From contig NC_091374.1 of the NCBI RefSeq assembly GCF_038502225.1, positions 8,937,201-9,001,200 of the forward strand: 64,000 nucleotides of DNA, written 5' to 3'. The stretch comes from Cherax quadricarinatus (taxonomy: Eukaryota; Arthropoda; Malacostraca; Decapoda; Parastacidae). Positions 4,810 to 60,560 of the stretch are shown here, in pieces. Every line of letters starts with the position of its first letter. Within the stretch, counting starts at the first letter, position 1. The notes under the pieces are model-generated. The model saw only the letters and a list, made by a program, of their open reading frames with translations. It ran no database searches and was not told the origin of the DNA. A program made the position numbers and the translations under genes.

Positions 4810-5417
4810 AATATTAAATTACTATTGTTTTGATGGTACATTGTAGATTTCACAATGCCCAATACAAAGCACTGTGAGCAAAGTGCACAGTATTATTATT
4901 ATAATAAAAAAGAAGTGTTAAACCTACAAGAAAGTGCATAGTAACCACCCACTCGTGTCACGAGCAAATTTTTACAGCCTTTAACAAAATCTGGGTAGAA
5001 GTAGGGTTATGGCATGCAAGTGAATTTGCACCAAGTGATACCAATTGAATTATACCCAATGGAAAATTGTTGGGATATCCTAGGTTAAGCTATCATAAAA
5101 TATCACTTTTTTTATATCCATAATGATCATATGGGCACACATGTATGTCCACATCTTTACTCTCAGTAATACCATACAAATTTGTAATTGTTTGTAATAA
5201 GAAAATCCATTTTCATAAATATAAACATACTTATAAAACCTTAAAATAGCTTCCCTAAATGTATAACATGGGTCCAATGAAGTCATAATATAGCACTTGA
5301 CTGGGTTATCCAAGGTTAATTCTACACAATTTAATACATGTGCATGCTCATATTATTATTTTGTACCCTCAAACCATTGTACACATTAAATACTATTAGT
5401 TTCAAAACTGTATTGTT
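4810..5417. other. AT-rich stretch with no recognisable feature
   Basis: No coding potential, tandem repeat or element boundary was recognised. Short open frames here have no recognisable protein character. Confidence 0.5.
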
Positions 5418-5580
5418 TATTCATTGGGAGAGCGCTAAACCCGTAGGACTCGTGCATCTCCCTGGGGAGGAGGAATGGGAGGCATTCAGGTTTGATCTAA
5501 GGAAGGGAAGCACATGTCCATTTCCTTGGATCAAAAGCCCCCCCCCCCTTGCTTTGCTTCAAGGAACCTCCCTTTGACAG
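5418..5580 (-). mobile_element. Bipartite LINE-derived short element (copy 1)
   Basis: Read on the minus strand it runs from AAAGGGAGGTTCCTTGAAGC through CTTTTGATCCAAGGAAATGG to TACGGGTTTAGCGCTCTCCC. These are the 5' and 3' signatures of the family described at 41503-41666. A 13-C run at 5540-5552 interrupts it. Confidence 0.8.
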
Positions 5581-6478: not shown

Positions 6479-6808
6479 ATGTCCGACGATTCGGGTAAAA
6501 CCCATCTCTCGGAGGAGGAGTGTCTAAAAGTTCGAAAATGGTGGTGCTTCTTGCTGTCAAGTATCTTCACGTTCCTAGCAGGGATCTTCATAGTTCTGAT
6601 ATGGCGAGTCTTCTCCTTCCTCTGCTGCCGGAACAGGGATCCCAGCGAGTATCAAAAACAACAAGAAAAGGACAAATTGCTAGCGCAGCAGGGAAAGCCC
6701 CCTGGCCAGCCCAAGCCCAAGAATCTCATGGAGGGCAACTTTGTCACAGAAGCCAAAGACTGGGCGGGGGAACTCATCTCTGGCCAAACTACAACAGGCA
6801 GAATCCTG
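6479..6808 (+). CDS. slo: Slowpoke BK potassium channel alpha subunit, first coding exon
   Basis: Encodes the first 110 residues of the large-conductance Ca2+- and voltage-activated K+ channel of the plasma membrane. Residues 1-20 are the short acidic extracellular N-terminus. Residues ~21-47 (starting WWCFLLSSIFTFLAG) are S0, the extra transmembrane segment specific to Slo1 channels. A Cys-Cys pair (49-50) follows, at a position where vertebrate Slo1 is palmitoylated, then a charged, Pro/Lys-rich S0-S1 linker. Residues 91-110 form the highly conserved EAKDWAGELISG..TTGRIL block just before S1. I chose ATG 6479: it has A at -3, and an in-frame TGA lies upstream at 6461. The exon ends in phase 0 at CTG|GTAGGT (6809-6814), matching a donor site, and the reading frame loses similarity exactly there. 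The N-terminus is close to the insect protein as I remember it. S1 onwards is not in the window. Confidence 0.93.
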
Positions 6809-6986: not shown

Positions 6987-7000
6987 TAATTACCTATACC

Positions 7001-7110
7001 TAGAGGGAAGTACCTTGATGCTGGTGATGGGCTCTTGATCAAAGGAACTGAATTTACCATCCCCTTCCCTTGAACCTGAATGCCTCCCATTCCCCAGGCT
7101 CAAGATGTTT
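7001..7110 (+). mobile_element. Bipartite LINE-derived short element (copy 2, 3'-incomplete)
   Basis: AGGGAAGTACCTTGATGCTG, then GGCTCTTGATCAAAGGAACT and CCTGAATGCCTCCCATTCCC. The standard tail is replaced or diverged after 7100. Confidence 0.7.
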
Positions 7111-7255
7111 CCTGTAGGTTTAGGGGTCATTTCAAATTCCCAAAGACAAACAAACGTATATAATGTTAAAAAAAGTGAAAGTTTGGTTTTTACATATTTC
7201 TACGTTTCAGCTCATTGCTCACAACCAAAAAGACCAGGATTCTATATCAGGCAGT

Positions 7256-7422
7256 CCTCCCCTCAAGGGAGGTTCCTTGACGCTGGTGAGGGGCTCTTGA
7301 TCTAGGGAATTAGATCTGTGCTCTGATTCCCTGAACTGAGCCTGAAGACCTTCCATCCACCTGCCCCCCACATGCGCTGTATAACCCTACGGGTTTAGCC
7401 CTCCCCCATGATTATAATATGC
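7256..7422 (+). mobile_element. Bipartite LINE-derived short element (copy 3) with 8-bp TSD
   Basis: Complete copy from CCTCAAGGGAGGTTCCTTGA to GATTATAATAT. CAGGCAGT occurs immediately on both sides (7248-7255 and 7423-7430), an 8-bp target-site duplication. Confidence 0.88.
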
Positions 7423-9599: not shown

Positions 9600-9732
9600 T
9601 CCCTTGATGCTGGTGAGGGGGCTTTTGATCCAAGGAACTAGACTATTCTTTGCTTGGATCGAATTTGAATGCTTCTTATTCCACAGGCGCTATATGTACC
9701 CTGCGGGTTTAGCTCTTTCATCTGAATAAAAT
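9600..9732 (+). mobile_element. Bipartite LINE-derived short element (copy 4, 5'-truncated)
   Basis: CCCTTGATGCTGGTGAGGGG, CTTTTGATCCAAGGAACTAG, then GGCGCTATATGTACCCTGCG and GGGTTTAGCTC. Confidence 0.8.
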
Positions 9733-9778
9733 AGAATTGTGATCGACATAATTCTTTAATGGCTGATCCGTCGTTTGA

Positions 9779-9920
9779 TTATATTCATGGGGAGCGCTAA
9801 ACCCGTAGGATTATACAGTGCATGTGGGGGGTGGGAGGCAATTCAGGGAACTGGAGCACAGATCCAATTCCCTAGATCAAGAGCCCCTCACCAGCATCAA
9901 GGAACCTCCCTTGAGGGGAC
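9779..9920 (-). mobile_element. Bipartite LINE-derived short element (copy 5) with 11-bp perfect TSD
   Basis: 142-bp copy flanked by CCGTCGTTTGA at 9768-9778 and 9921-9931. The perfect 11-bp duplication fixes both ends of the element: 5' GTCCCCTCAAGGGAGGTTCC and 3' TAGCGCTCCCCATGAATAT (minus strand). The direct repeat implies target-primed insertion of a discrete unit. Confidence 0.93.
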
Positions 9921-11214: not shown

Positions 11215-11333
11215 ATATAATGACTGTCTTTGGTAGGTAAGACATATGGGCAGCAGTTACGCAACTTTATTCCGGAACGTTTCGCCTACACAGTAGGCTT
11301 CTTCAGTCGAGAACAAAAGTAGGCCTACTTTTG
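11215..11333 (+). mobile_element. Foldback superfamily, single-arm member
   Basis: Leader mini-hairpin TGTCTT..AAGACA (11225-11244), then ACTTTATTCCGGAACGTTTC and GCCTACACAGTAGGCTTCTT. This is the leader, ACGTTTCG core and short inner stem layout of the elements at 17288, 36504 and 54173. The opposite arm is absent, and a bipartite element follows directly. Confidence 0.6.
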
Positions 11334-11463
11334 TGAGGGGCTCTTGATCTAGGGAATTGGACTTGTGCTCCAGTTCCCTGAATTGAGCCTGAATGCTTTC
11401 CACCCCCCGCCATATGCGCTGTATAATCCTACGGGTTTAGCGCTCCCCAATGATTATAATAAA
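11334..11463 (+). mobile_element. Bipartite LINE-derived short element (copy 6, 5'-truncated)
   Basis: Begins within GTGAGGGGCTCTTGATCTAG and ends TAGCGCTCCCCAATGATTAT followed by AATAA. Confidence 0.88.
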
Positions 11464-11635
11464 AACTACAATTGATATTGCAGACTATGGTACTTGTTTT
11501 ATTTTAAATAATGTTAGCTCTAAACTCTTGTGGGTCATTCATCGCAAGACGTGGTGGAGGCTTGATCTTCCCATACCTGAGGGCGAGACACGCATTTCCT
11601 ATTTATCTCGCCTAATGTCTAACAGCCACTGAAGG

Positions 11636-17495: not shown

Positions 17496-18765
17496 ATTCT
17501 CATAAATATTTTATATTCCCTATATGCATTATGTATCCATTAGTAAGGCTTCATAGCTTCCATTATCCCATTTTTTTTTTTTTTTGAGACTTGGCATTCC
17601 AATGTATCCAGATTTTTCTGTCCACTACCAAATTGACATAGTCCTACGTTGTTTCCACATACGAAACTGCTGAACTACCATTGGAATATTTGAGAATATC
17701 CTCATCGGTCTACTGAATTCTCTTAGCTCCTCCGGGTGACAGCTTTCATTACCTATTTGTAAACCCATCCTGTGTTACAGAGTATTTCACAATAACCTTT
17801 TAAAATATATATAAATCTGGATAGCCACACAATGCGGTTGCACTTAAAAGATCAAGCAGACAAAATTAAGGGTAGCTCGAGATAAACTATTCAGTTTACT
17901 GTTCATGAATGTGTCCACTTATTATTTCATGTAGTGAAGTTATACAGGAACGTAGTGGTGAACTTCAAGAAATAGTTCGGTATAATGTCCATGAAATTCA
18001 GGAGCACCATAGCTGTTTTAGAAAACTCAAAATCAGCCAACTCCTCTGAAAACTCAGCGCTGTATGACCCTGGTGGTTTTGCGCTTAGTTTTGATTATAA
18101 AAATATTAATCCTCTGAAAACTGGCCACCAAATTTTGTGGATGAGCGGTGGCAACCGAGTAACTTTTTTTTTATGGCATCTGCAAGCTTTGTGGAAGATA
18201 TTACACTTCTAAACTCCCGCACTACTTCATAGAGTGATATAGGGATGTAACTATTGTATAATTTGTAATAAGATAAAATTGTTTTACAGTAGTTCAGTTA
18301 GAAGACTAAAGCGCTTTAACAAGATTACAAAAAACACTGTTTTTAGCTAGCGAGCAATGTCCCCACACTGTCCCAGAAAGCCATGCAGCTGGGTTTAACC
18401 CTGGCACTTTATCTACAACAAAAATCCTTCCCCTCTAGTACTAGTCTTCCCCTATCCCCCACTTCCCTCACTCACTCGTTTGGGTCTTACCTGTGAGTTC
18501 CGTTTTTGGTAAATTAATGAAATAATGCAGGTTTTAGGTAATTTAAGTAGATTACCAAATTACATACCATAATCCCTTTTACACTTGTTTTAGTAGAGTT
18601 TGTGCATTACTTTGTGGGTTTTAAGTCCTTCACATTCCTGTGACTTCTATTTTCTTAGAACTTTTATTGTTCACTTATATGAATCTGAATGTTTACACCG
18701 ACTCTCATCACACTATACTGTATAAGTTTCAGAAACTTGCTGCACTTCATAAGTTCAAAATTAGT
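17496..18765. other. Noncoding stretch
   Basis: Only an orphan bipartite-element tail is visible, near 18060-18110 (CTGTATGACCCTGGTGGTTT, GCGCTTAG, TTTTGATTATAA). Confidence 0.4.
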
Positions 18766-18767
18766 GC

Positions 18768-18912
18768 CGCCTCAGGGAACTTTGTTGATGCCGGTAAGGG
18801 GCTCTTGACCCAAAGAATTCGACTTCTCTCCTTGGATAAAAGTCAGTTGTTTCTTCTTCCCCTAGGTACTGTATGACCCTTATTGGTTTAGCACTCCCTC
18901 CTGAATGTAATT
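18768..18912 (+). mobile_element. Bipartite LINE-derived short element (copy 7, diverged)
   Basis: CTCAGGGAACTTTGTTGATG, GGGCTCTTGACCCAAAGAAT, then CTGTATGACCCTTATTGGTT and TAGCACTCCCTCCTGAAT. Confidence 0.75.
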
Positions 18913-19378
18913 CAGAAGCAGCCATTAAAAAGTCTTAACTGCTTTTCGATTAATTATTTTTACATTTTTTTTAATATAATGCATATTAAAAACCTTGTAT
19001 CACACTTCTGTTACAACTTAAATTATCGTGGAGGCTATTATGTGTAATACGCGTGCAATGCATGACCCTTACTGGCTTAGTGCTTTTTTGTGAATATAAT
19101 AATGTGTAATGTAAATTTAAATGTTTAAAGTTTTCTAGCTAAAAAGATAAACATGTTTCAGTATGTTAATTTCCATTTTTCCCCCCAGAAATTTTACATT
19201 ATGATTTTCTTTTCTTTTCAGGTGGGTGTTGTATGCAGTACCACGTAGCAGACTTTATATTCATGGTAGTGTGAAAATTTATTGTCATATATATATTTTT
19301 CTTTTACGCATCAATTTTACAGGCTGAGAGATGTTTTCCTAAATCATCTCATTTCAAAGCCCAGCCTTATCTAAGGTA
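18913..19378. other. Noncoding stretch
   Basis: Contains an orphan bipartite tail at about 19058-19110 (GCATGACCCTTACTGGCTTA). Otherwise nothing recognised. Confidence 0.4.
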
Positions 19379-19640: not shown

Positions 19641-19883
19641 CCACACAAGGGACCCTGCCGATATATATAATGGAACCGTCACAATACGTACTACAAAAGT
19701 ATTGCACTGTTGGCACACACTGTGTTTCCACTTCCGAACTGTGCAAGTTTCAGATGACAGCGTGTTAAGGACAAAGTTAACGATATCAAGAGACGTCTGT
19801 CTGCAGCTTAGTGTTTATTCCAGAGAACCTCGAGAATTAATGCTTAGCAACCCCACACACCTCTACTACTCGCTTTGGAATTG

Positions 19884-20000
19884 TGGGTAAGCGCTAAACC
19901 CATTGGAGAATTGCAGATCGTGGGGAATAAGTGGTAGTTGGGTTGAATCCCAAGGGAACTTGTCTAATTCCTTGGATCAAGATCCCTAATCGGGAAGAAC
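19884..20000 (-). mobile_element. Bipartite LINE-derived short element (copy 8, partial)
   Basis: GTAAGCGCTAAACCCATTGG at the tail side, and AATTCCTTGGATCAAGATCC on the head side. Confidence 0.7.
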
Positions 20001-21884: not shown

Positions 21885-22045
21885 CAGGTCCCTTAGCGGG
21901 GGGTGCCTTGATGCTGGTGTGAGGCTTTTGTTCCGAGGAATAAGACTTACCCTTCCCCTCCTTAGATTGAATCTGATTGCTTCCCCTTCCCCAGGTTTTG
22001 CATAACGCCTACCGGTTTAGCGCTTTCCCCTCTTTCGAATAAATA
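21885..22045 (+). mobile_element. Bipartite LINE-derived short element (copy 9)
   Basis: GGTGCCTTGATGCTGGTGTG, TTTTGTTCCGAGGAATAAGA, TTGCATAACGCCTACCGGTT and TAGCGCTTTCCCCTCTTTCG. Confidence 0.8.
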
Positions 22046-26240: not shown

Positions 26241-27030
26241 TTAAAAAAAAATATTTGTTAAGGGCCCTTAGATCTGCTCTAAGATTAGCAATCCTTACAT
26301 ATGCTGTCGATGTTATGCAGTTGATGTGCACTTCTGTGTGCGTGCGTGTGCTCACCTTTGCATCTGAACGTGTGTATTTGTGAGCAAAGATTCAGCGTAT
26401 GTATGTGTGAGCATTCAGGTCCTGTCCACACGGTTAAAATTGTTTAATACTAACAAAGAACAAAGGCTGTAACATTATTTGTTCAGAAAAACGAATGGAC
26501 AACATTTTACGCCAACCACACCAAATGCTGCAACATTTTTGCATGCTGCAACAATGAATTTTTGTGTCGGCTGATTTTTTTTTATTATTACTTTATATCT
26601 TTTAGATTGCTTTCAACTTATCTGATCATTCAAAATTGGAGTTTATCTCCGACTTGTAATTTCCAAGAATCCGAGATTCCGTGTTTGCCAGCAGTCTCGT
26701 AAAAGTTGGAAGTGGTCTCAAAGAGTCAAATGAAATTGGGGGACGGCAGGAAGCGGTGAATGAAACACGGAACGAGAAGGGAAGACCGGCAGGAGAGATT
26801 AGAATTTAAATAAATAGAAATAAGGAACTTATTTGATGATAATTTTACATACGGGTTTAGCGTTTTCTTGTGTAATAATCCATATGGGTTTAACCTTTTT
26901 TTGTGACTGCAATAATTTAATGATAATACAGTCATCGAAACAAGGAAAGGCAGTGATGAGAAGGAAAACAGGAAAGGCAGAGATAAGAATGAAAACATGG
27001 AGAACTATATCAGATAAAAAGCGTTTAAAT
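26241..27030. other. Noncoding stretch with orphan bipartite tails
   Basis: TACGGGTTTAGCGTTTTCTT (26850) and CATATGGGTTTAACCTTTTT (26882) are tail-like fragments. Otherwise nothing recognised. Confidence 0.4.
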
Positions 27031-27234
27031 TATTATTATTATAATCAAAAAGAAGCGCTAAGCCACAAGGACTATACAGCGCTGCAGGGCAGGAAGGAAG
27101 CGAGGGCATCAGGTGGCAAAAGGGAGATGGATGAGTAATAGGTTACGGATAACAGCGGGGCAGTGGATGGTGAAAGGGTAAAGGGCAGCAAGAGACTGAA
27201 CTAGAAAGGGCTGAGAGTAGTGCGAAAAGTATCA

Positions 27235-30200
27235 TCAGAGTTTGTGGAGTAAATCAGTCGTTGTCAAGAAGTCAATGAGAGAGTCAGGATTAAAGGAGGG
27301 TCCATCAGCAAGAAGGGAAGGTAAAGAGAGAGTAGTAGAACGAAGACGGCGTTGGAGGTAAATTCTGCGTGCTCGTTGATAGAGAGGGCAGTCTAACAGA
27401 ATGTGGCTAATCGATACTGGAACTTGACACTGCTCACAGAGAGGAACAGGGTGCCTCTCCATGAGATACCCATGAGTAAGACGAGTGTGACCAATGCGAA
27501 GGCGGGAGAGAGTGGTCTCCCAACCTCGGCACTGATGACAAGAAGATGGCCAGTAACCTATGCTCGGTTTAATAGAATGAAGTTTGTTACCGAGCAGAGT
27601 TGACCAACGTTGTTGCCAACGGGTGCGAAGGTGGGTAGCTATTGCAGCAAAATAGTCCAGAAATGGAACACCTCAATAGGAAATTGGTAGGTCATGTACT
27701 GCTGACCGCGCAGCAGTGTCTGCCTGTTCATTGCCCTGTACGTCGACATGACCAGGGACCCAACAAAAAACAATATCTTTATGTTTGGTAGAGATACGGC
27801 ATAACCAAAGTTGCATACGGAGAACTAGGGGATGAGATGTATCAAATTTTCGTATAGCCTGTTGAGCACTAAGGGAGTCTGAGACTACTACAAATGATGA
27901 CACAGGCATAGATGCGATACGAATAAGTGCTGCAAGAATGGCATACAGTTCAGCAGTAAAAATGCTAGCTGAAGATAGTAAATGTCCCCGCACGACGCTG
28001 TCTGGAAACACTGCTGCGAATCCGACGCCGTCTGAAGACTTAGAGCCATCTGTGTACACAGCGGTGGCATGAGAATGGGAGTGGAAGTGATCAAGAAAAA
28101 GAGAGCGGGAAGCCACCGTAGGCAGTTGAGCTTTCGAGCAAGGGAGTGAGAAAGAACAGACCCGAACAGCTGGAACTTCCCAGGGGGGTAGGGAAAAGTG
28201 AGATGCTACATGAACATATAAAGGTGGTAACTGAAGGGAAGACAAGAGTGAATGTAGGCGAAGAGAAAAGGGACGGAGCAAACAGGGGCGGCGAACGAAT
28301 AAAGAATGTCTACTAATATCGGTGACCATTCTATAAATGGAAGGGCTGTATAGTCCTTGTGGCTTAGCGCTTCTTTTTGATTATAATAATAATAATATAA
28401 ATGGAAGGATTGTGTAGATCGTGAGAGCATACATAGTAGCGAAGGCAATGGGCATCACGGCGATCAGACAAGGATGGAACATTCTCCATCCGCTTCTGTA
28501 TAGAGGCTCTCAACAGGGGAAGAGCGAAAAGCACCAAGGCACAAACGTAATCCTTGGTGATGGATAGAGTTAAGGCTAGAGAGAGTAGCAGGAGAGGCCG
28601 CGGAATAAATCTGGTCACCATAATCGAGTTTTGATAAAACGAGGGCTGAATGTAGGCGAAGCAGAGTTCGACGATCAGCTCCCCAGGAAAGATGAGCAAG
28701 GGTTTTAAGAAGGTTTAGCCGGCTGTGACAAGTTGCCTTCAGAGAGGTTATGTGAAGTTTCCAGGATAACCGACGGTCAAAGAGAAGGCCTAGAAACCTG
28801 ACTGTATCACGTTCGGGGATACGGGAGCCATAGAGATACAAAGGATGATCGGAGATAACAGAGCGTCTAGTGAAAGTAATTTGGTGAGTTTTGGTACTTG
28901 AAAATTTAAACCCATGCGTGGTGGCCCAAGTGGAAACACGGTCGACCGCATGCTGGAGAGAAACTGCAATAAGATGACAGTCAGCGCCTGCACAAGCAAT
29001 AGCGAAGTCATCAACATAGAGTGATGACCAAATATTGGGTGGAAGAACAGAGGCCAAATCATTTACAGCAAGGAGAAAAAGTGTTGCGCTTAGAACACAT
29101 CCCTGAGGGACACCTTCAGCTTGGACGAAGTCCGGGGAAAGAACATTATTGACTCGAACACGGAAATGTCTGTCAGTTAAAAAAGTTCTTAAGGAAGGAT
29201 GGTAGATTGCCTCGGAGGCCTAAAGAATGGGCCTGGGCCAAAATATTATAACTCCAAGTTGTGTCATATGCCTTCTCAAGGTCAAAAAATATCTGAGTGA
29301 TTATTCGCAAAGGCATTACGAACATACGTATCCAAGCGTAGTAAGGGGTCTATGGTAGAACGACCCTTAGGAAAGCCATATTGACTAGCGGAGAGACTGT
29401 TGTGTGTCTCTAAATACCACATTAAACGTCAATTTACGAGACGTTCCATCACTTTGCAAACTGCACTAGTAAGAGCGATGGGGCGATAGTGGGAGGCATC
29501 ATGTTCTGTAGTACCCGGTTTGCGGAAAGGGAGAACAATGGCAGATTTCCACAGCTGAGGAAGAACTCCTTGTGCCCAAATAAGATTGAAGAGGTGTAAG
29601 AGGACTACAAGGGCTGACCGATGTAAATGTTGTAACATACGAATATGAATGTCGTCAGGCCCAGCTGCCGATGATCGGCAAGCTGAGAGCGTTGCCTCCA
29701 GTTCTTGAAGTGTAAAAGGCACATTATACTGTTCTTCTCTGAGAGAAGAAAAGTCCAAGGGTACTAACTCTCTGGCAGACTTTGAGGAAAGAAACGAGGG
29801 GCATAGATGGAGCCCTCGGGAAATACGGACCAGATGTGTGCCAAGTTCAATGGCAACGTCGAGAGGGTTTGCTACATCAACACCAGCGACCCGTAGAACA
29901 GGAGCCGGGTCAGGAGAGTATTTACCACTCAATTTCCTCACTTTTTTCCAGACTGCACTCATAGAAGAAGCAGAGGTGATGGTGGAAACATAGTCTCGCC
30001 AACAAGTGCGTTTAGCTTCATGGATGACACGGCGAGCGATCGCACGCTTCTGCTTAAAATCAAGAAGTCTCTCAGCGGTTCTATTGTACCGGTACCTGCC
30101 CCATGCAGCACGTTTCAAACGTACTGCACGAGCACATGCAGGAGACCACCAAGGCACGCACTTCTGAGAATGCCTGCCTGAGGTTTGGGGTATAGAATGA

Positions 30201-31005
30201 GCAGCTGCAGTATAAACTGACGTCGAGAAGATGTGTAGGAGCTCATCAATGGAGGATGAAGAAGGAACCTCACTAAAAGCAGTGAGGTGTGAGTAAAGAT
30301 CCCAATTTGCCCAATCAAATTGCCAGCGAGGGCTACGGAAAGGTGGTGAATAGGAAGGAGAAGTAAGAATGATCGGAAAATGATCGCTGTCATGTAAGTC
30401 TGGTAGAACAGACCAGGTGAAGTCTAGTGCAGTGGAGGAAGAGCAGACTGATAGATCGATGCAAGAGAGAGTATGAGTACGAGGATCAAAATGGGTGGGA
30501 GTACCCGTATTTAAAACATGGAGGGGGTGAGAGGCGAGAAAAGCCTCCAGCTGAATGCCACGTGAGTCACAATGAGACCCCCCCCCCCCCAGAGGAAATG
30601 GTGGGCATTAAAATCACCAAGTAACAGAAGTGTTGGTGGTAAGGATGAAACAAGAAAGGCAAAGTCTGGGATAGAAAATGCTCGAGAAGGAGAGAGATAT
30701 AAAGAACATATTGTAAACCACTTATTCAAGTGGATACGGGCTGCAGCGTAATGCAGCGAGGTATGGACAAATAGTTGGCAGTACAGAATATCATTGCGTA
30801 GAAGAAGGGCACTTTCATTAAAGGTCCCATCTGAGAAAGGATCCGAAGAATACAATAAATTATAGCCTGAGATAGGTTGGAAAACAGCAGAGTGTAATTT
30901 TGGTTCTTGTAAGCAAGCACCAACAGGGGAAAACCTGGAAAGCAACATCTGAAGCTCACCCCAATTACCCCTGAGGCCGCGGATATTCCACTGTAAATAG
31001 GCCAT
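27235..31005 (-). pseudogene. LINE ORF2: endonuclease - reverse transcriptase - RNase H - zinc knuckle
   Basis: From ATG 31005: APE-type endonuclease with LQWNIRGL, ACLQEPKL and LLLGDFNAHH motifs (to ~30570). RT palm motifs follow: FRKPGTTEHDASHYRPIALT (29530-29470), SQYGFPKGRST, FDLEKAYD, VPQGCVLSATLF and YVDD (near 29015). RNase H comes next, with TDGS (~28045), the ELYAI block, SDSLSA and VPGHVDVQGNEQAD (~27730-27700). The C-terminal knuckle is CEQCQ..H..LDCPLY (27430-27380). Lesions: frameshift at the 13-C run 30578-30590, TGA at 29429-29431, frameshift at the A-run 29284-29289, frameshift near 28485, a 64-bp insertion (including TSD) at 28345-28408, and TGA at 27673-27675. Catalytic motifs survive. 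Both stops fit CGA-to-TGA change. Confidence 0.9.
28345..28395 (+). mobile_element. 51-bp LINE tail inserted into the LINE, 13-bp perfect TSD
   Basis: GCTGTATAGTCCTTGTGGCT, then TAGCGCTTCTTTTTGATTAT and AATAA, is the extreme 3' end of the same LINE family in opposite orientation. It is flanked by TATAAATGGAAGG at 28332-28344 and 28396-28408. It splits ORF2 between RT and RNase H. Confidence 0.95.
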
Positions 31006-31046
31006 GACTGGCGAAGAAAATATCAGGAATCTGTAGGTAAAGGCAC

Positions 31047-33004
31047 CTACAGACTAGAGGGGTTAGAAAAGTCAACGTGTGGTGGCATTGGAAGACGTTC
31101 AAGTAGCGAAGGAATGGAGCGTTGCGAAGAATGGGGTTGTGAAGATGGAGGAGAGGGAAGAGAAGGAACAGGAAGTGAATCAGTGTCCATTGAAGGTTTA
31201 GTCTCTGCAATATATTCTGAAATGGCTTCAAGTGTTTCTGAATTCAAAGATGTATGGGAGACCATATTGGAGATAGAAGGAGGAGGGTGAGTAAAGATTG
31301 GGACAGTAATGGACTGTACCAAAGTAGAGGGGGAGGGAAGAGTGTAAGGGACTGGAGATGAAGTGTGGGGGGGGGACAGAAGAGGCAGAAACCTGGGAGG
31401 TGGCAGAAGAGGGAGAAACTTGGGAGGGGACGGGGGTGGAAGGCATAGTACGAGGAGGAGGGTGAATCTCCACACTTGTAATAGAGCCAGAGAGAGGGGA
31501 AGAACTAGGTACAGAGACTGGAAAGGTAAAGTGTGGAGGTGGAAGAAGGGAAGGAAGGGGCAAAGAAGATTTGAGCAATGTGGATTTTTTGGACTTCTGA
31601 GTAGAGGGGGGATTGTTATTAGGTGTCGTACGAGGTCTTGTCGATACTGGGGCTTGTGAGGAAGGACGCGAAGATGTGAGAACAGACTGAGTTGTAGTCG
31701 GGACGTCAGAGCCAAGGACAGCAAAAGGATTAGATGCCGTAGTGGCTATGGGAGTGGTAACAACAGAGGAGGCTGCAGAAGATGGGACCCCAGAAGTGGG
31801 GGGATGTTTGGAAACACGAGAATAAGAAACACGGGGTAGTCTCCCTTGGAGGCAGAGATGAGTAACTGCCATAGCATAAGGGGGACCTTCTGCCTCTTTG
31901 AGGCAACGGATTTCACGTTCATTTAAGTAGACCTGGCAACGGCGGGAGTACGAAGGGTGAGCTTCATTACAATTAAGGCAAGATGGAGGTTGACTGCAAG
32001 ATGTATTAAAATGGTCGTCGGCACCACAGACTGGGCATTCGGCCATAGATCTGCAATATTTCACTGGGTGACCAAAATGCCAGCAATTTCTACATTGTTG
32101 CGGTGTAGGTATCACCTTTCGAACTTGTAACCGATGTCCCGCGACATATACAGAGGACGGGAGCGACATATACAGAGGACGGGAGTTCTCGGCTGTCAAA
32201 AGTTAAACGAGCCACATTGCAAGGGTAACGTCTCTGCCCCCGGGCAGGAAGGACATAAGTGTCTACTTTGAGGATTGGGAGATCCTGGAGTTCCAGCTGT
32301 TCAAAAATGTCATTGCCACATGACTGGAAATTCTGTTGGACTATGGTATGGGGCAGAATGACAGTACCACTACAAGAATTGAGAGAAAGATGTTTTTCAA
32401 TAGTGATAGGAGTAGTATCGATATTCGAAAGGAGAGAAAGATCATGAGCTTGGGTAGCATTCTGGACAGTGACGATGCGCATACCGCTCTTGAGAGCATG
32501 AAATGAAATATCTCTACCAACATGACGCAGGAGCGCTTTGCCAATACTATGGTCAGAAAGGTAGGCAGAAGAAGAAGTCGGTCTTAAAGTAAAGAATTTA
32601 GTCCATTGTGTGGTCCGAAACTGAGCGTGGAGAGGGAGTGCTTGACGTGTCAGTCTTTTCCGAGTAGAATGGGAAGGTAACGAAGGAGCATCATCAGGAG
32701 ATTGACGTTGGCGTTTAGGAGTAGGACCGGAGTTGGTCTGGCGTGAAATGGGCGGGCGATTCGAAAATTGCCGTACCGTAGAGGGAGAAGCCGGAAGCAT
32801 AGTCAAAGGAGAGCGGAGTTCAGACAAATCGAAGGAGTCAGTCGAAGCCCCGGTACCTGAAGCGGGTGAGGAAACAGCACCAGCAAGAGGTACAGGGGCA
32901 TCAGGAGTGTCCGAAGAGTGGTCTAAACACAAGGCAGGGTCAGAATGGGGTGCGGTATCAAGAAGGGGCCCGGGGTTAGTGGGTTCATGGACTAGGGCTG
33001 CCAT
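31047..33004 (-). pseudogene. LINE ORF1 (gag-like, three zinc knuckles), frameshifted
   Basis: Begins at ATG 33004 with a Pro/Ser-rich, low-complexity N-terminal half (33004-32650). A region resembling the RNA-binding domain of I-type ORF1 proteins follows (32650-32200). Three consecutive Cys/His knuckles lie at about 32105-31955: CRNCWHFGHPVKYC, CPVCGADDHFNTSC and CLNCNEAHPSYSRRC. The C-terminal third is Ser/Pro-rich. Two frame breaks are visible: an exact 22-bp tandem duplication at 32141-32162/32163-32184, and a 9-G run at 31367-31375. After correcting neither, the frames join logically and stop at 31047, 41 bp before ORF2. Confidence 0.88.
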
Positions 33005-33733
33005 GGTTAGGTTACTCCTTTGCTTTTTGTTTTTAAGAAAAAAAAAGAAAGAAGAAAATAAAATAAAAATAAAAAAAAAGAATAAAAAAAGGGGGGAGCG
33101 GGGAGGAATAGTTCCCAGGAGGAATGAAAGGGCCGGAAATCTCCCTCCACGCCCAAGAGGACCTCAACACCGCTAGTAGAGCAGATGCAGCATGGAACCC
33201 GTGCCATACCCTACCCTTCATGCCAGTAAACCAGCAATCCGGGATAGCAACCTCACATCTGCCGAGCTACCTCGGTGGACAAAAGAGAGGGCGGCTGGAT
33301 ATCCGCCACAAAGCATACCTCCTTCGGCCACCACCCCCGGAATCCGAAAGGTGGCTTCCAGAGATACACCCGTCGCCGGAAAGACACCCAAAGCTACTCC
33401 GGGATACCAGAGAGGGATCGGGACATCCCCAGGCAATCCAGATTCCACTGCAAACTACGCCACCGCCAAGAACCTCAACGGAATGGGATGGACCCCGGTG
33501 TCCTTTCCCCTACCTAGGAACTAGTGCGCCTGAGGGAGAAATCCCAAAGGCCAAAAAGAGGAAGGGCAAAAGGGAGGGGTGAGGAGGAGGAGGAGGAATG
33601 GAAAAAGGGGAGGATGGGATAGGGGAGGGGAGAATGGGGGGTAATTAGGTTCGGTCTGAGGAAGAAGAACGACAGGGCTAATTCCTCAGACCAAGAGCCT
33701 CTTCACCACGCCAAGGAGCCCCCCTTGAAGAGG
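33005..33733 (-). other. LINE 5' UTR, its first ~57 bases shared with the bipartite short elements
   Basis: The outermost bases (minus strand) read CCTCTTCAAGGGGGGCTCCT, then GAGGCTCTTGGTCTGAGGAA, which align to the head of the bipartite elements. Inward are pyrimidine/purine-rich tracts and an A-rich block at 33040-33090. A 152-codon + strand frame at 33124-33582 is an overlapping artefact. Confidence 0.75.
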
Positions 33734-41475: not shown

Positions 41476-41502
41476 ATATGGATTTATATCTACATATCTA
41501 TA

Positions 41503-41666
41503 CCCCTCAAGGAAGATTCCTTGATGTTGGTGAGGGGCTCTTGATTTAGGGAATTGGATCTGTGCTCCAGTTCCCAGAATTAAGCCTGAATGCCTTCCAC
41601 AGCCCCCCCCCCCAGGCGCTGTATAATCCTCCGGGTTTAGCGCTTCCCCCTTGATTATAATAATAA
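41503..41666 (+). mobile_element. Bipartite LINE-derived short element (copy 10, reference copy), 12-bp perfect TSD
   Basis: TACATATCTATA flanks it at 41491-41502 and 41667-41678, so the unit is 164 bp. Head: CCCCTCAAGGAAGATTCCTT, GATGTTGGTGAGGGGCTCTT and GATTTAGGGAATTGGATCTG. A short hairpin GGGAATTGG..CCAGTTCCC is followed by a C-rich linker. Tail: GCGCTGTATAATCCTCCGGG, TTTAGCGCTTCCCCCTTGAT and TATAATAATAA. Head and tail align to the two ends of the LINE at 27031-33733. Confidence 0.95.
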
Positions 41667-41678
41667 TACATATCTATA

Positions 41679-52221: not shown

Positions 52222-52300
52222 TAAAACTTATGGTGCTGGTGAAGAGCTCTTTATCAAGGGAACTAAAGCTATCCCCCCTTCCTATCCACCACAACCCCAC
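52222..52300 (+). mobile_element. Bipartite LINE-derived short element fragment (head only)
   Basis: TATGGTGCTGGTGAAGAGCT, CTTTATCAAGGGAACTAAAG and CTATCCCCCCTTCC resemble the head region. No tail seen. Confidence 0.45.
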
Positions 52301-53250: not shown

Positions 53251-53403
53251 CTCCTCTAGGAAAGGTGCCTTGAAGCCTTCGAGGGGGCTCTTGATGCAAG
53301 GACTTGCTCTCCCTTTCCTTGGATTAGCCCTGGATGCCTCCCATTCCCTGGCGCTATATTACCCGCCTACGGATTTAGCGTTTCCCTCTTGATTAAATTA
53401 TTA
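53251..53403 (+). mobile_element. Bipartite LINE-derived short element (copy 11)
   Basis: CTCCTCTAGGAAAGGTGCCT, GGCTCTTGATGCAAGGACTT, CTGGATGCCTCCCATTCCCT, GGCGCTATATTACCCGCCTA and CGGATTTAGCGTTTCCCTCT. Confidence 0.8.
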
Positions 53404-54333: not shown

Positions 54334-54389
54334 ATTGTCAGCCATACTGGACGTGACTCCGTGCTAATTAGCATTCATAAAATTCATGG

Positions 54390-54525
54390 GGACTTGCTAA
54401 GCCTATCAGGGTCATATATTGCCTTGGGTATGCCAGTTAATCAGGTTTGATCCTAGAAAAGGGAAAGGCAGTGCCCAGTGCCTGAATCAAGAGTCCTGGC
54501 TTCAAGGCACTCACCATGAGTGAAA
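54390..54525 (-). mobile_element. Bipartite LINE-derived short element (copy 12, diverged)
   Basis: On +: GGACTTGCTAAGCCTATCAG at the tail side, TTTGATCCTAGAAAAGGGAA, CCTGAATCAAGAGTCCTGGC and TTCAAGGCAC at the head side. Confidence 0.65.
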
Positions 54526-60250: not shown

Positions 60251-60444
60251 GAACACGGCATTGTTTATAATGTTTGTTTCACGTATATTAAATTTTTAAT
60301 TCCATGCTTGGTCTCCGTCTTGTTATGTGATATTGTCAAAGTTATTATCTGCACATTGGTAAAACCAGCCACTGTGTCGAGTGACAGAATTGACTGTTGT
60401 ATTTGCAATTTCGTAAACCAGAAAAAAAAAGTGGTCTTCTATTT

Positions 60445-60560
60445 TTGGAGGGGAGCACTAAGACCGTAAGGGGTCGTACAGCCACTGGGGAATGGGTGGT
60501 AATCAGCTTTCATCAGGTCGACTTGGGAAAACAGCCAGGGGAGTGTTTGTATTTTTGGGA
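60445..60560 (-). mobile_element. Bipartite LINE-derived short element (copy 13, diverged)
   Basis: On +: GGGGAGCACTAAGACCGTAA, GGGGTCGTACAGCCACTGGG and GAATGGGTGGTAATCAGCTT resemble the tail and linker. The head is not clear. Confidence 0.5.

Follow-up and report, generated by a model that had tools for sequence, protein, structure and literature searches.

The stretch of Cherax quadricarinatus DNA analysed here, 64,000 nucleotides long and referred to below as the window, carries at positions 41503..41666 of the plus strand a complete short element of 164 bp. As the original prediction had stated, this unit lies between two copies of the 12-bp target-site duplication TACATATCTATA (41491..41502 and 41667..41678). 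The element belongs to a young subfamily, with 97-100% identity in the 40 copies scored out of 931 first-look candidates. Base 1 opens the 5' strand of a predicted helix P1 (CCCCTCA, 41503..41509), which pairs with TGAGGGG at 41531..41537. Between the two strands lie the 5' strand of a second helix, P2 (GGAAGA, 41511..41516, with one pair fewer than in the young consensus GGAAGG), and a P3/L3 region, CC-TTGATGTT-GG (41519..41530), with a weak P3 of two pairs that was assigned by eye and for which our structure descriptor picked a different register. P1 is followed by the P4 hairpin (41541..41583, strands 41541-41553 and 41571-41583), the joiner J4/2 GCCTGAATG (41584..41592) and the P2 3' strand CCTTCC (41593..41598). 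By its position in the fold, the C at 41585 or 41586 within the joiner is the candidate catalytic base. The unit ends in a LINE-derived 3' stem-loop with a (TAA)n tail (41614..41666).

The resident LINE, LINE A, occupies 27030..33733 on the minus strand and is full-length with broken frames, comprising ORF1, endonuclease, reverse transcriptase (RT) and RNase H. The enzymatic domains were identified by Pfam (endonuclease PF03372/PF14529, RT PF00078, RNase H PF00075) and CCHC-type knuckles in ORF1 by eye only. The RNase H part has a 95% identical counterpart, over 63% of the query, in a C. quadricarinatus protein. Its head (33636..33733, minus strand) has the same predicted fold as that of the short element, with P1 CCTCTTCA/TGAAGAGG, P2 GGGGGG/CCCCCC, P4 and the J4/2 joiner ACCTAATTA, and its 3' stem-loop and TAA tail (27030..27082, minus strand) are homologous to the short-element tail. 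LINEs of the I group (I factor and relatives) possess CCHC knuckles, endonuclease, RT and RNase H, end in 3' TAA repeats and leave duplications of about 12 bp. LINE A is like them in all these features, the knuckles again by eye, a likeness of parts rather than a placement by tree; we know of no such head in the I factor.

The first 300 bases of LINE A were 95-100% identical in 40 scored of 592 candidates, and an exact 34-mer of the LINE head occurred 4,523 times in the genome. Among the first 100 places listed, 15 of these 34-mers fell within 0.35 Mb (C1:41,103,480-41,453,092), whereas the genome average is about 1.1 per Mb; this cluster may be an array that arose by duplication or nesting. 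At L040:1267-1610, two LINE heads stand about 230 bases apart, one LINE A copy having either entered the 5' UTR of a second copy or become joined to it. Within the resident LINE and antisense to it, a 5'-truncated LINE A copy of about 50 nt, stem-loop and TAA tail, was found at 28332-28408 with a 13-bp duplication (TATAAATGGAAGG, by eye), suggesting that insertion requires no more than the tail.

Copies, subfamilies and abundance

The thirteen short-element copies listed for the window in the original prediction are all real, as a profile search recovered every one of them at E <= 1e-7. The profile was built from 29 copies including 12 of the 13; the remaining one, a minus-strand fragment of the 3' half (60437..60514), lay outside the training set and scored 7.6e-8. 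At E <= 0.01, the profile yielded no match in 20 block-shuffled windows or in the reversed window. By blastn with the 41503 unit alone (E <= 1e-3), 10 of the 13 copies were found, that at 21885 by its tail part only, while those at 19884, 54390 and 60445 were detected by the profile and not by blastn. Besides the 41503 unit, the plus strand carries copies at 6997..7139, 7258..7420, 9600..9736 and 11330..11466 (5' part missing) and old ones at 18765..18916, 21887..22045 and 53251..53403. The copy at 7258..7420 belongs to the middle subfamily and shows the P2 combination GGGAGG/CCTTCC, a G.U intermediate. Further minus-strand copies lie at 5416..5578, 9774..9920, 19873..19987 (partial) and 54373..54525 (old), and the profile also revealed a plus-strand fragment of the head part at 52231..52283 (E 4.3e-6). 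The predicted duplications of 11 bp at 9779 (TCAAACGACGG) and 8 bp at 7256 (CAGGCAGT) are both present, and duplications of 12-14 bp were seen in 8 of 11 young short elements, a count made with no shuffle control.

In total, 120 profile matches were obtained. The 35 full-length ones were aligned and, on the basis of score and visual inspection, divided into a young (11), a middle (9) and an old (15) subfamily. A tail-only copy at L006:564-613 bears the tail of the young short element, which therefore is sometimes 5'-truncated too. Another tail-only piece in the window (18043-18122) has a LINE B-like tail (TATGACCCTGGTGGTTTTGCGCTTAG; for LINE B see below) and is flanked on both sides by CCTCTGAAAACT (12 bp, as read by eye).

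A 34-base core of the short element, with C or T allowed at one position, occurred 17,559 times in the genome searched (3.95 Gb, 7,334 contigs), and its reversed control did not occur. Within 322 kb, made up of the window and the fetched pieces with overlaps removed, 48 short-element copies were counted, a number that excludes 34 LINE heads, 22 tail-only pieces and 28 locus-defining copies. Depending on the group of pieces, the density amounted to 86-219 copies per Mb or 1.1-3.0% of bases, in a non-random sample in which pieces had been fetched for repeats and the LINE-flank group includes the LINE itself. Scaling of this local density suggests a genome total of about 0.34-0.86 million copies.

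Both ends of the short element are homologous to the LINE

The profile of 29 short-element copies, from which LINE heads were excluded, matched the window LINE at both of its ends, at positions 9-112 with E = 6.9e-14 and at positions 6628-6710 with E = 2.5e-7, the database size being that of one window. The head of another LINE copy was matched at 1.7e-13. The head homology claimed in the original prediction is thus real and far above chance, while its length is about 100-108 nt and not the 57 bases given there; the claimed homology of the tail to the LINE 3' end was likewise confirmed. In alignments to the LINE A head, identical columns numbered 72/101 for the window copy, 73/101 for the young consensus and 79/100 for the old consensus. 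The proposed check on genome-derived ends gave the same picture, as the head similarity stays above chance with LINE and short-element ends taken from many copies.

Of such a LINE, the short element accordingly retains ~100-108 nt at the 5' end and ~52 nt at the 3' end, and the ~6.5 kb in between are absent. The joint of the deletion is a C-rich stretch immediately past the P2 3' strand (P2'), the last helix of the head, so that the unit consists of a ribozyme-like head, the LINE 3' stem-loop and the TAA tail. The deletion took nearly everything except the predicted fold and the tail. A derivation of P2' from the LINE 3' UTR, where some likeness exists too, was rejected, as the old consensus continues CCCATTCCCC in the way the LINE 5' UTR continues CCCATTCTCCCC.

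An ordinary pol III SINE, with a head derived from tRNA, 5S or 7SL and a LINE-type tail, would share with this unit its length, abundance, duplications and tail, all of which are SINE-like. However, the unit contains no tRNA, Rfam searched up to E 10 returned neither 5S nor 7SL, and some 100 nt of the head align with the LINE 5' end at 6.9e-14, leaving this origin with hardly any probability.

Could the LINE instead have acquired its head from the short element? If a LINE copy had obtained its head by capture from a short element unrelated to it, the likeness would say nothing on the origin of the latter, and LINEs are known to jump to other RNA templates at their 5' ends (PMC3414825). In all 20 LINE copies inspected, which lie at different places, however, the LINE starts with this head and is preceded by unrelated flanks; the spot had been located in each case via the head string, which makes this observation circular in part. 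The head also occurs in the decayed older LINE copies L040 and L097 and upstream of a LINE B copy (L101), and the thousands of exact 34-mers speak against a single event as well. The capture test that had been proposed to decide the matter was carried out on the 12 LINE copies with a tail within the 500 bp fetched: in 11 of these, a duplication of 10-13 bp directly adjoins the head (by eye), and none was seen in the twelfth (L014). The head therefore belongs to the LINE, and capture by a single LINE is refuted. Had the capture taken place in an ancestor shared by these LINEs, the homology of the tail would need a second cause. Recent capture is largely refuted, and we consider capture of any kind very improbable.

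With both ends homologous to one LINE, the middle missing and a head of other than tRNA, 5S or 7SL origin, the 164-bp unit is almost certainly a short internally deleted element (SIDE), derived from a crayfish LINE lineage with endonuclease, RT and RNase H. The homology of both ends supports the earlier reading of a nonautonomous element made from the 5' and 3' ends of a LINE after the manner of RIME and NARTc.

Parentage of the short element

Both ends of the short element differ from LINE A by roughly 20-30%, so that LINE A is a relative of the parent and not a recent parent. As a lead, the probable parent is an older member of the lineage and not LINE A in its present form. A sister family, LINE B, shared 45-73% identity with LINE A in those stretches of RT and RNase H that span at least 100 residues. 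One decayed LINE B copy was matched at 73-81% over most of the query by 39 other places among 4,295 first-look candidates, indicating that LINE B is old. LINE B was seen at L073:2191-3045 and L083-L098, and the copies inspected were mostly 5'-truncated.

LINE B was considered as a candidate direct parent, with mixed results. Its tail is nearer to the old short-element tail than that of LINE A (44/52 versus 40/52), but no nearer to the young tail (43 matches each). For one LINE B copy (L101), a head 82% identical to that of LINE A was found 3 kb upstream of the RT match; it was cut by the end of the piece and was no nearer to the short element than the LINE A head (61/84 columns versus 79/100). 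In nine other pieces fetched for LINE B heads none was found.

The head is predicted to fold like an HDV-like ribozyme

HDV-like ribozymes have the order P1, P2, P3, P1', P4, J4/2, P2' and are cleaved just 5' of P1. The helices of the crayfish head follow this very order. In HDV-like ribozymes, a P1 of about 7 bp starts at the cleavage site; here, P1 starts at base 1, which is fixed by the target duplications, and the first seven bases (eight in the LINE) pair with bases 29-35 (29-36 in the LINE). Between LINE and short element, P1 shows a U-A/C-G exchange, and the LINE has one whole extra pair. P2 is a pseudoknot in which the six bases following P1 pair with six bases beyond the long hairpin. 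Its strands are GGGAGG/CCTCCC in the old, GGGAGG/CCTTCC in the middle and GGAAGG/CCTTCC in the young consensus and GGGGGG/CCCCCC in the LINE, and pair without mismatch in all four if G.U is allowed. Through old, middle and young, the pairing changes from G-C via G.U to A-U, and the LINE has G-C at both variable positions; this path lies within the history of the short element itself. P4 shows compensatory changes on both strands between the old short element (TTGATCCAAGGAA/TTCCTTGGATTAA) and the LINE (TTGGTCTGAGGAA/TTCCTCAGACCGA). P4 and a joiner J4/2 of the CCTRA type, with its putative catalytic C, are present in all four consensuses. The same parts, including a flexible, mismatched P3 and P2, figure in a description of the R2 ribozyme (PMC3774820).

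Covariation was determined in an alignment of 17 hand-chosen rows, 16 of them distinct (14 of 35 full-length short elements and 3 of 30 LINE loci), which had been chosen after the fold was known. For P2 and P4 together, 92.0% of 299 cells were paired and 8 of 19 pairs had changed on both sides (shuffled mean 3.8), and neither value was reached in any of 500 shuffles; the number of further pair types, reached by 237 of 500 shuffles, was not significant. Control structures slid along the alignment had 38.7-61.9% of cells paired. P2 alone, in the 16 distinct rows, was paired in 95.8% of cells (shuffled 90.9%), with 9 cells changed on both sides (shuffled 3.0) and a covariation of 0.357 (shuffled 0.248), each reached by 0 of 500 shuffles. 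Weaker measures for P2 were the pairs changed on both sides, reached by 29 of 500 shuffles, and the further pair types, reached by 61. In an anchored descriptor search, three heads scored 28 each and none of 20,000 shuffles per head reached this score, while matches at any score occurred in 38, 36 and 33 of the 20,000; the descriptor was written with knowledge of the fold, so that this test was not a blind one.

Other observations fit the fold less well. Rfam searches with E up to 10 did not return any HDV-type family for the short-element head or the LINE head. Only two pairs of P3 are clear and P1.1 is weak if present at all; in its best parse, the descriptor places P3 in another register. 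P4 contains one mismatch each in the young and the middle consensus, and the 5' strand of the young P4 finds a better partner in the 3' strands of the middle and old consensuses than in its own. Strand swaps test P2 little, as the 5' strand of the LINE P2 pairs with the P2' of every family via G.U. Pseudoknot-free folding yielded P4, but neither P1 nor P2, and the window copy at 41503 has lost one P2 pair.

A structured head need not be catalytic. In a LINE-derived SIDE, it could be an internal promoter or another structured signal of the 5' UTR, with the 5' end marking the start of transcription at base 1. The Pr77 head of the trypanosome elements is also a promoter (PMC4035085), the negative Rfam result is compatible with such a role, and in 92.7% of cells the P2 5' strand also forms a hairpin that is purely local. 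As a replacement for P2, however, this hairpin was rejected: it covaries little, with one pair changed on both sides (expected 0.6) and a covariation of 0.226 (shuffled 0.192), which 11 of 500 shuffles reached, in contrast to the pseudoknot P2, which does covary. In addition, a promoter alone leaves unexplained the P1 at base 1 with its compensatory change and the HDV-like order of helices, and we regard a non-catalytic head as unlikely. The head shared by LINE and short element is quite likely an HDV-like self-cleaving ribozyme, as predicted from its fold, and what had been termed the promoter end of the LINE looks like such a ribozyme.

Discussion

The following working of the element is proposed. 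Transcription of the short element would begin at its own 5' end or proceed as part of a longer RNA, either a host transcript or a read-through product. The head would fold as an HDV-like double-pseudoknot ribozyme and cleave exactly 5' of base 1. The reverse transcriptase of the LINE lineage would then recognise the stem-loop and TAA repeats at the 3' end, and the RNA would be inserted by target-primed reverse transcription, leaving duplications of about 12-14 bp. By anatomy, the duplications and the LINE-type tail point to this route, and LINE and short element agree in the precision of their 5' ends and in the type of duplication. Taken as a whole, a SIDE with an HDV-like ribozyme head that works in this manner is the best explanation, and we hold it with fair confidence.

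By its anatomy, the crayfish SIDE may work like RIME, NARTc and the R2 SIDE, the likeness to the trypanosome elements being one of design. The R2 SIDE of Drosophila willistoni joins an HDV-like ribozyme 5' end, for which cleavage was shown, to a LINE 3' end, and its ends are 64% and 81% identical to those of R2, with compensatory changes in the helices (PMC3414825). The crayfish element likewise joins a ribozyme-like head to a LINE 3' end, with both ends diverged from the partner and compensatory helix changes. In contrast, the R2 SIDE has 529 bp with an unrelated centre of 197 bp and a single 28S rDNA site according to that report, whereas the crayfish SIDE has 164 bp and no such centre, is dispersed and far more numerous, and carries a ribozyme that is predicted only. 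SIDEs of non-LTR elements were called rare in the same report, with TbRIME and Ag-Sponge named. NARTc and RIME are truncated forms of L1Tc and ingi, respectively, and their 77-nt head is both a promoter and an HDV-like ribozyme (PMC4035085). As in the pairs RIME/ingi and NARTc/L1Tc, a nonautonomous short element keeps the head of an endonuclease-RT-RNase H LINE. Unlike RIME and NARTc, the crayfish element resides in another host kingdom, has lost its centre almost wholly and ends in a stem-loop with TAA repeats.

High abundance has a precedent in Persaeus, a high-copy CR1/Zenon SIDE of Lepidoptera that makes up 1.48% of host genomes on average and is stated to be an exception among mostly low-copy SIDEs (PMC6740152). 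Like Persaeus, the crayfish element is an abundant SIDE made from LINE ends and has no pol III head. Persaeus differs by its CR1 partner and a taxon-specific central region, and the word ribozyme is absent from the text of that report.

Within the literature covered by our search, which excluded supplements and most subscription journals, no published report of the crayfish element was found, and the DNA words of the element were absent from it. The kind of element is thus known, while this host, this partner and this abundance were not found in print. SINEs have been described as rare in decapods (PMC10454600), and 0.17% is given for SINEs in the published C. quadricarinatus assembly of 5.26 Gb and 100 chromosomes (PMC10106460). 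As 1.1-3.0% of bases fell to this element alone in the DNA sampled, there appears to be a gap in annotation; our guess is that the element was filed under LINEs.

The finding adds a SIDE that is reduced to little beyond a ribozyme-like head and an RT-recognition tail and is very abundant without a pol III head. The source of RNA for such an element, self-cleavage from any host transcript or its own promoter, is now testable, and for a cleavage assay the subfamilies together with the LINE offer a naturally occurring set of variants of the fold. More speculatively, and with the balance somewhat against it, the genome may hold hundreds of thousands of dispersed self-cleaving ribozymes, many young ones still active and many within transcribed genes. 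New elements would then be born by excision from host transcripts, and host RNAs would be cut genome-wide.
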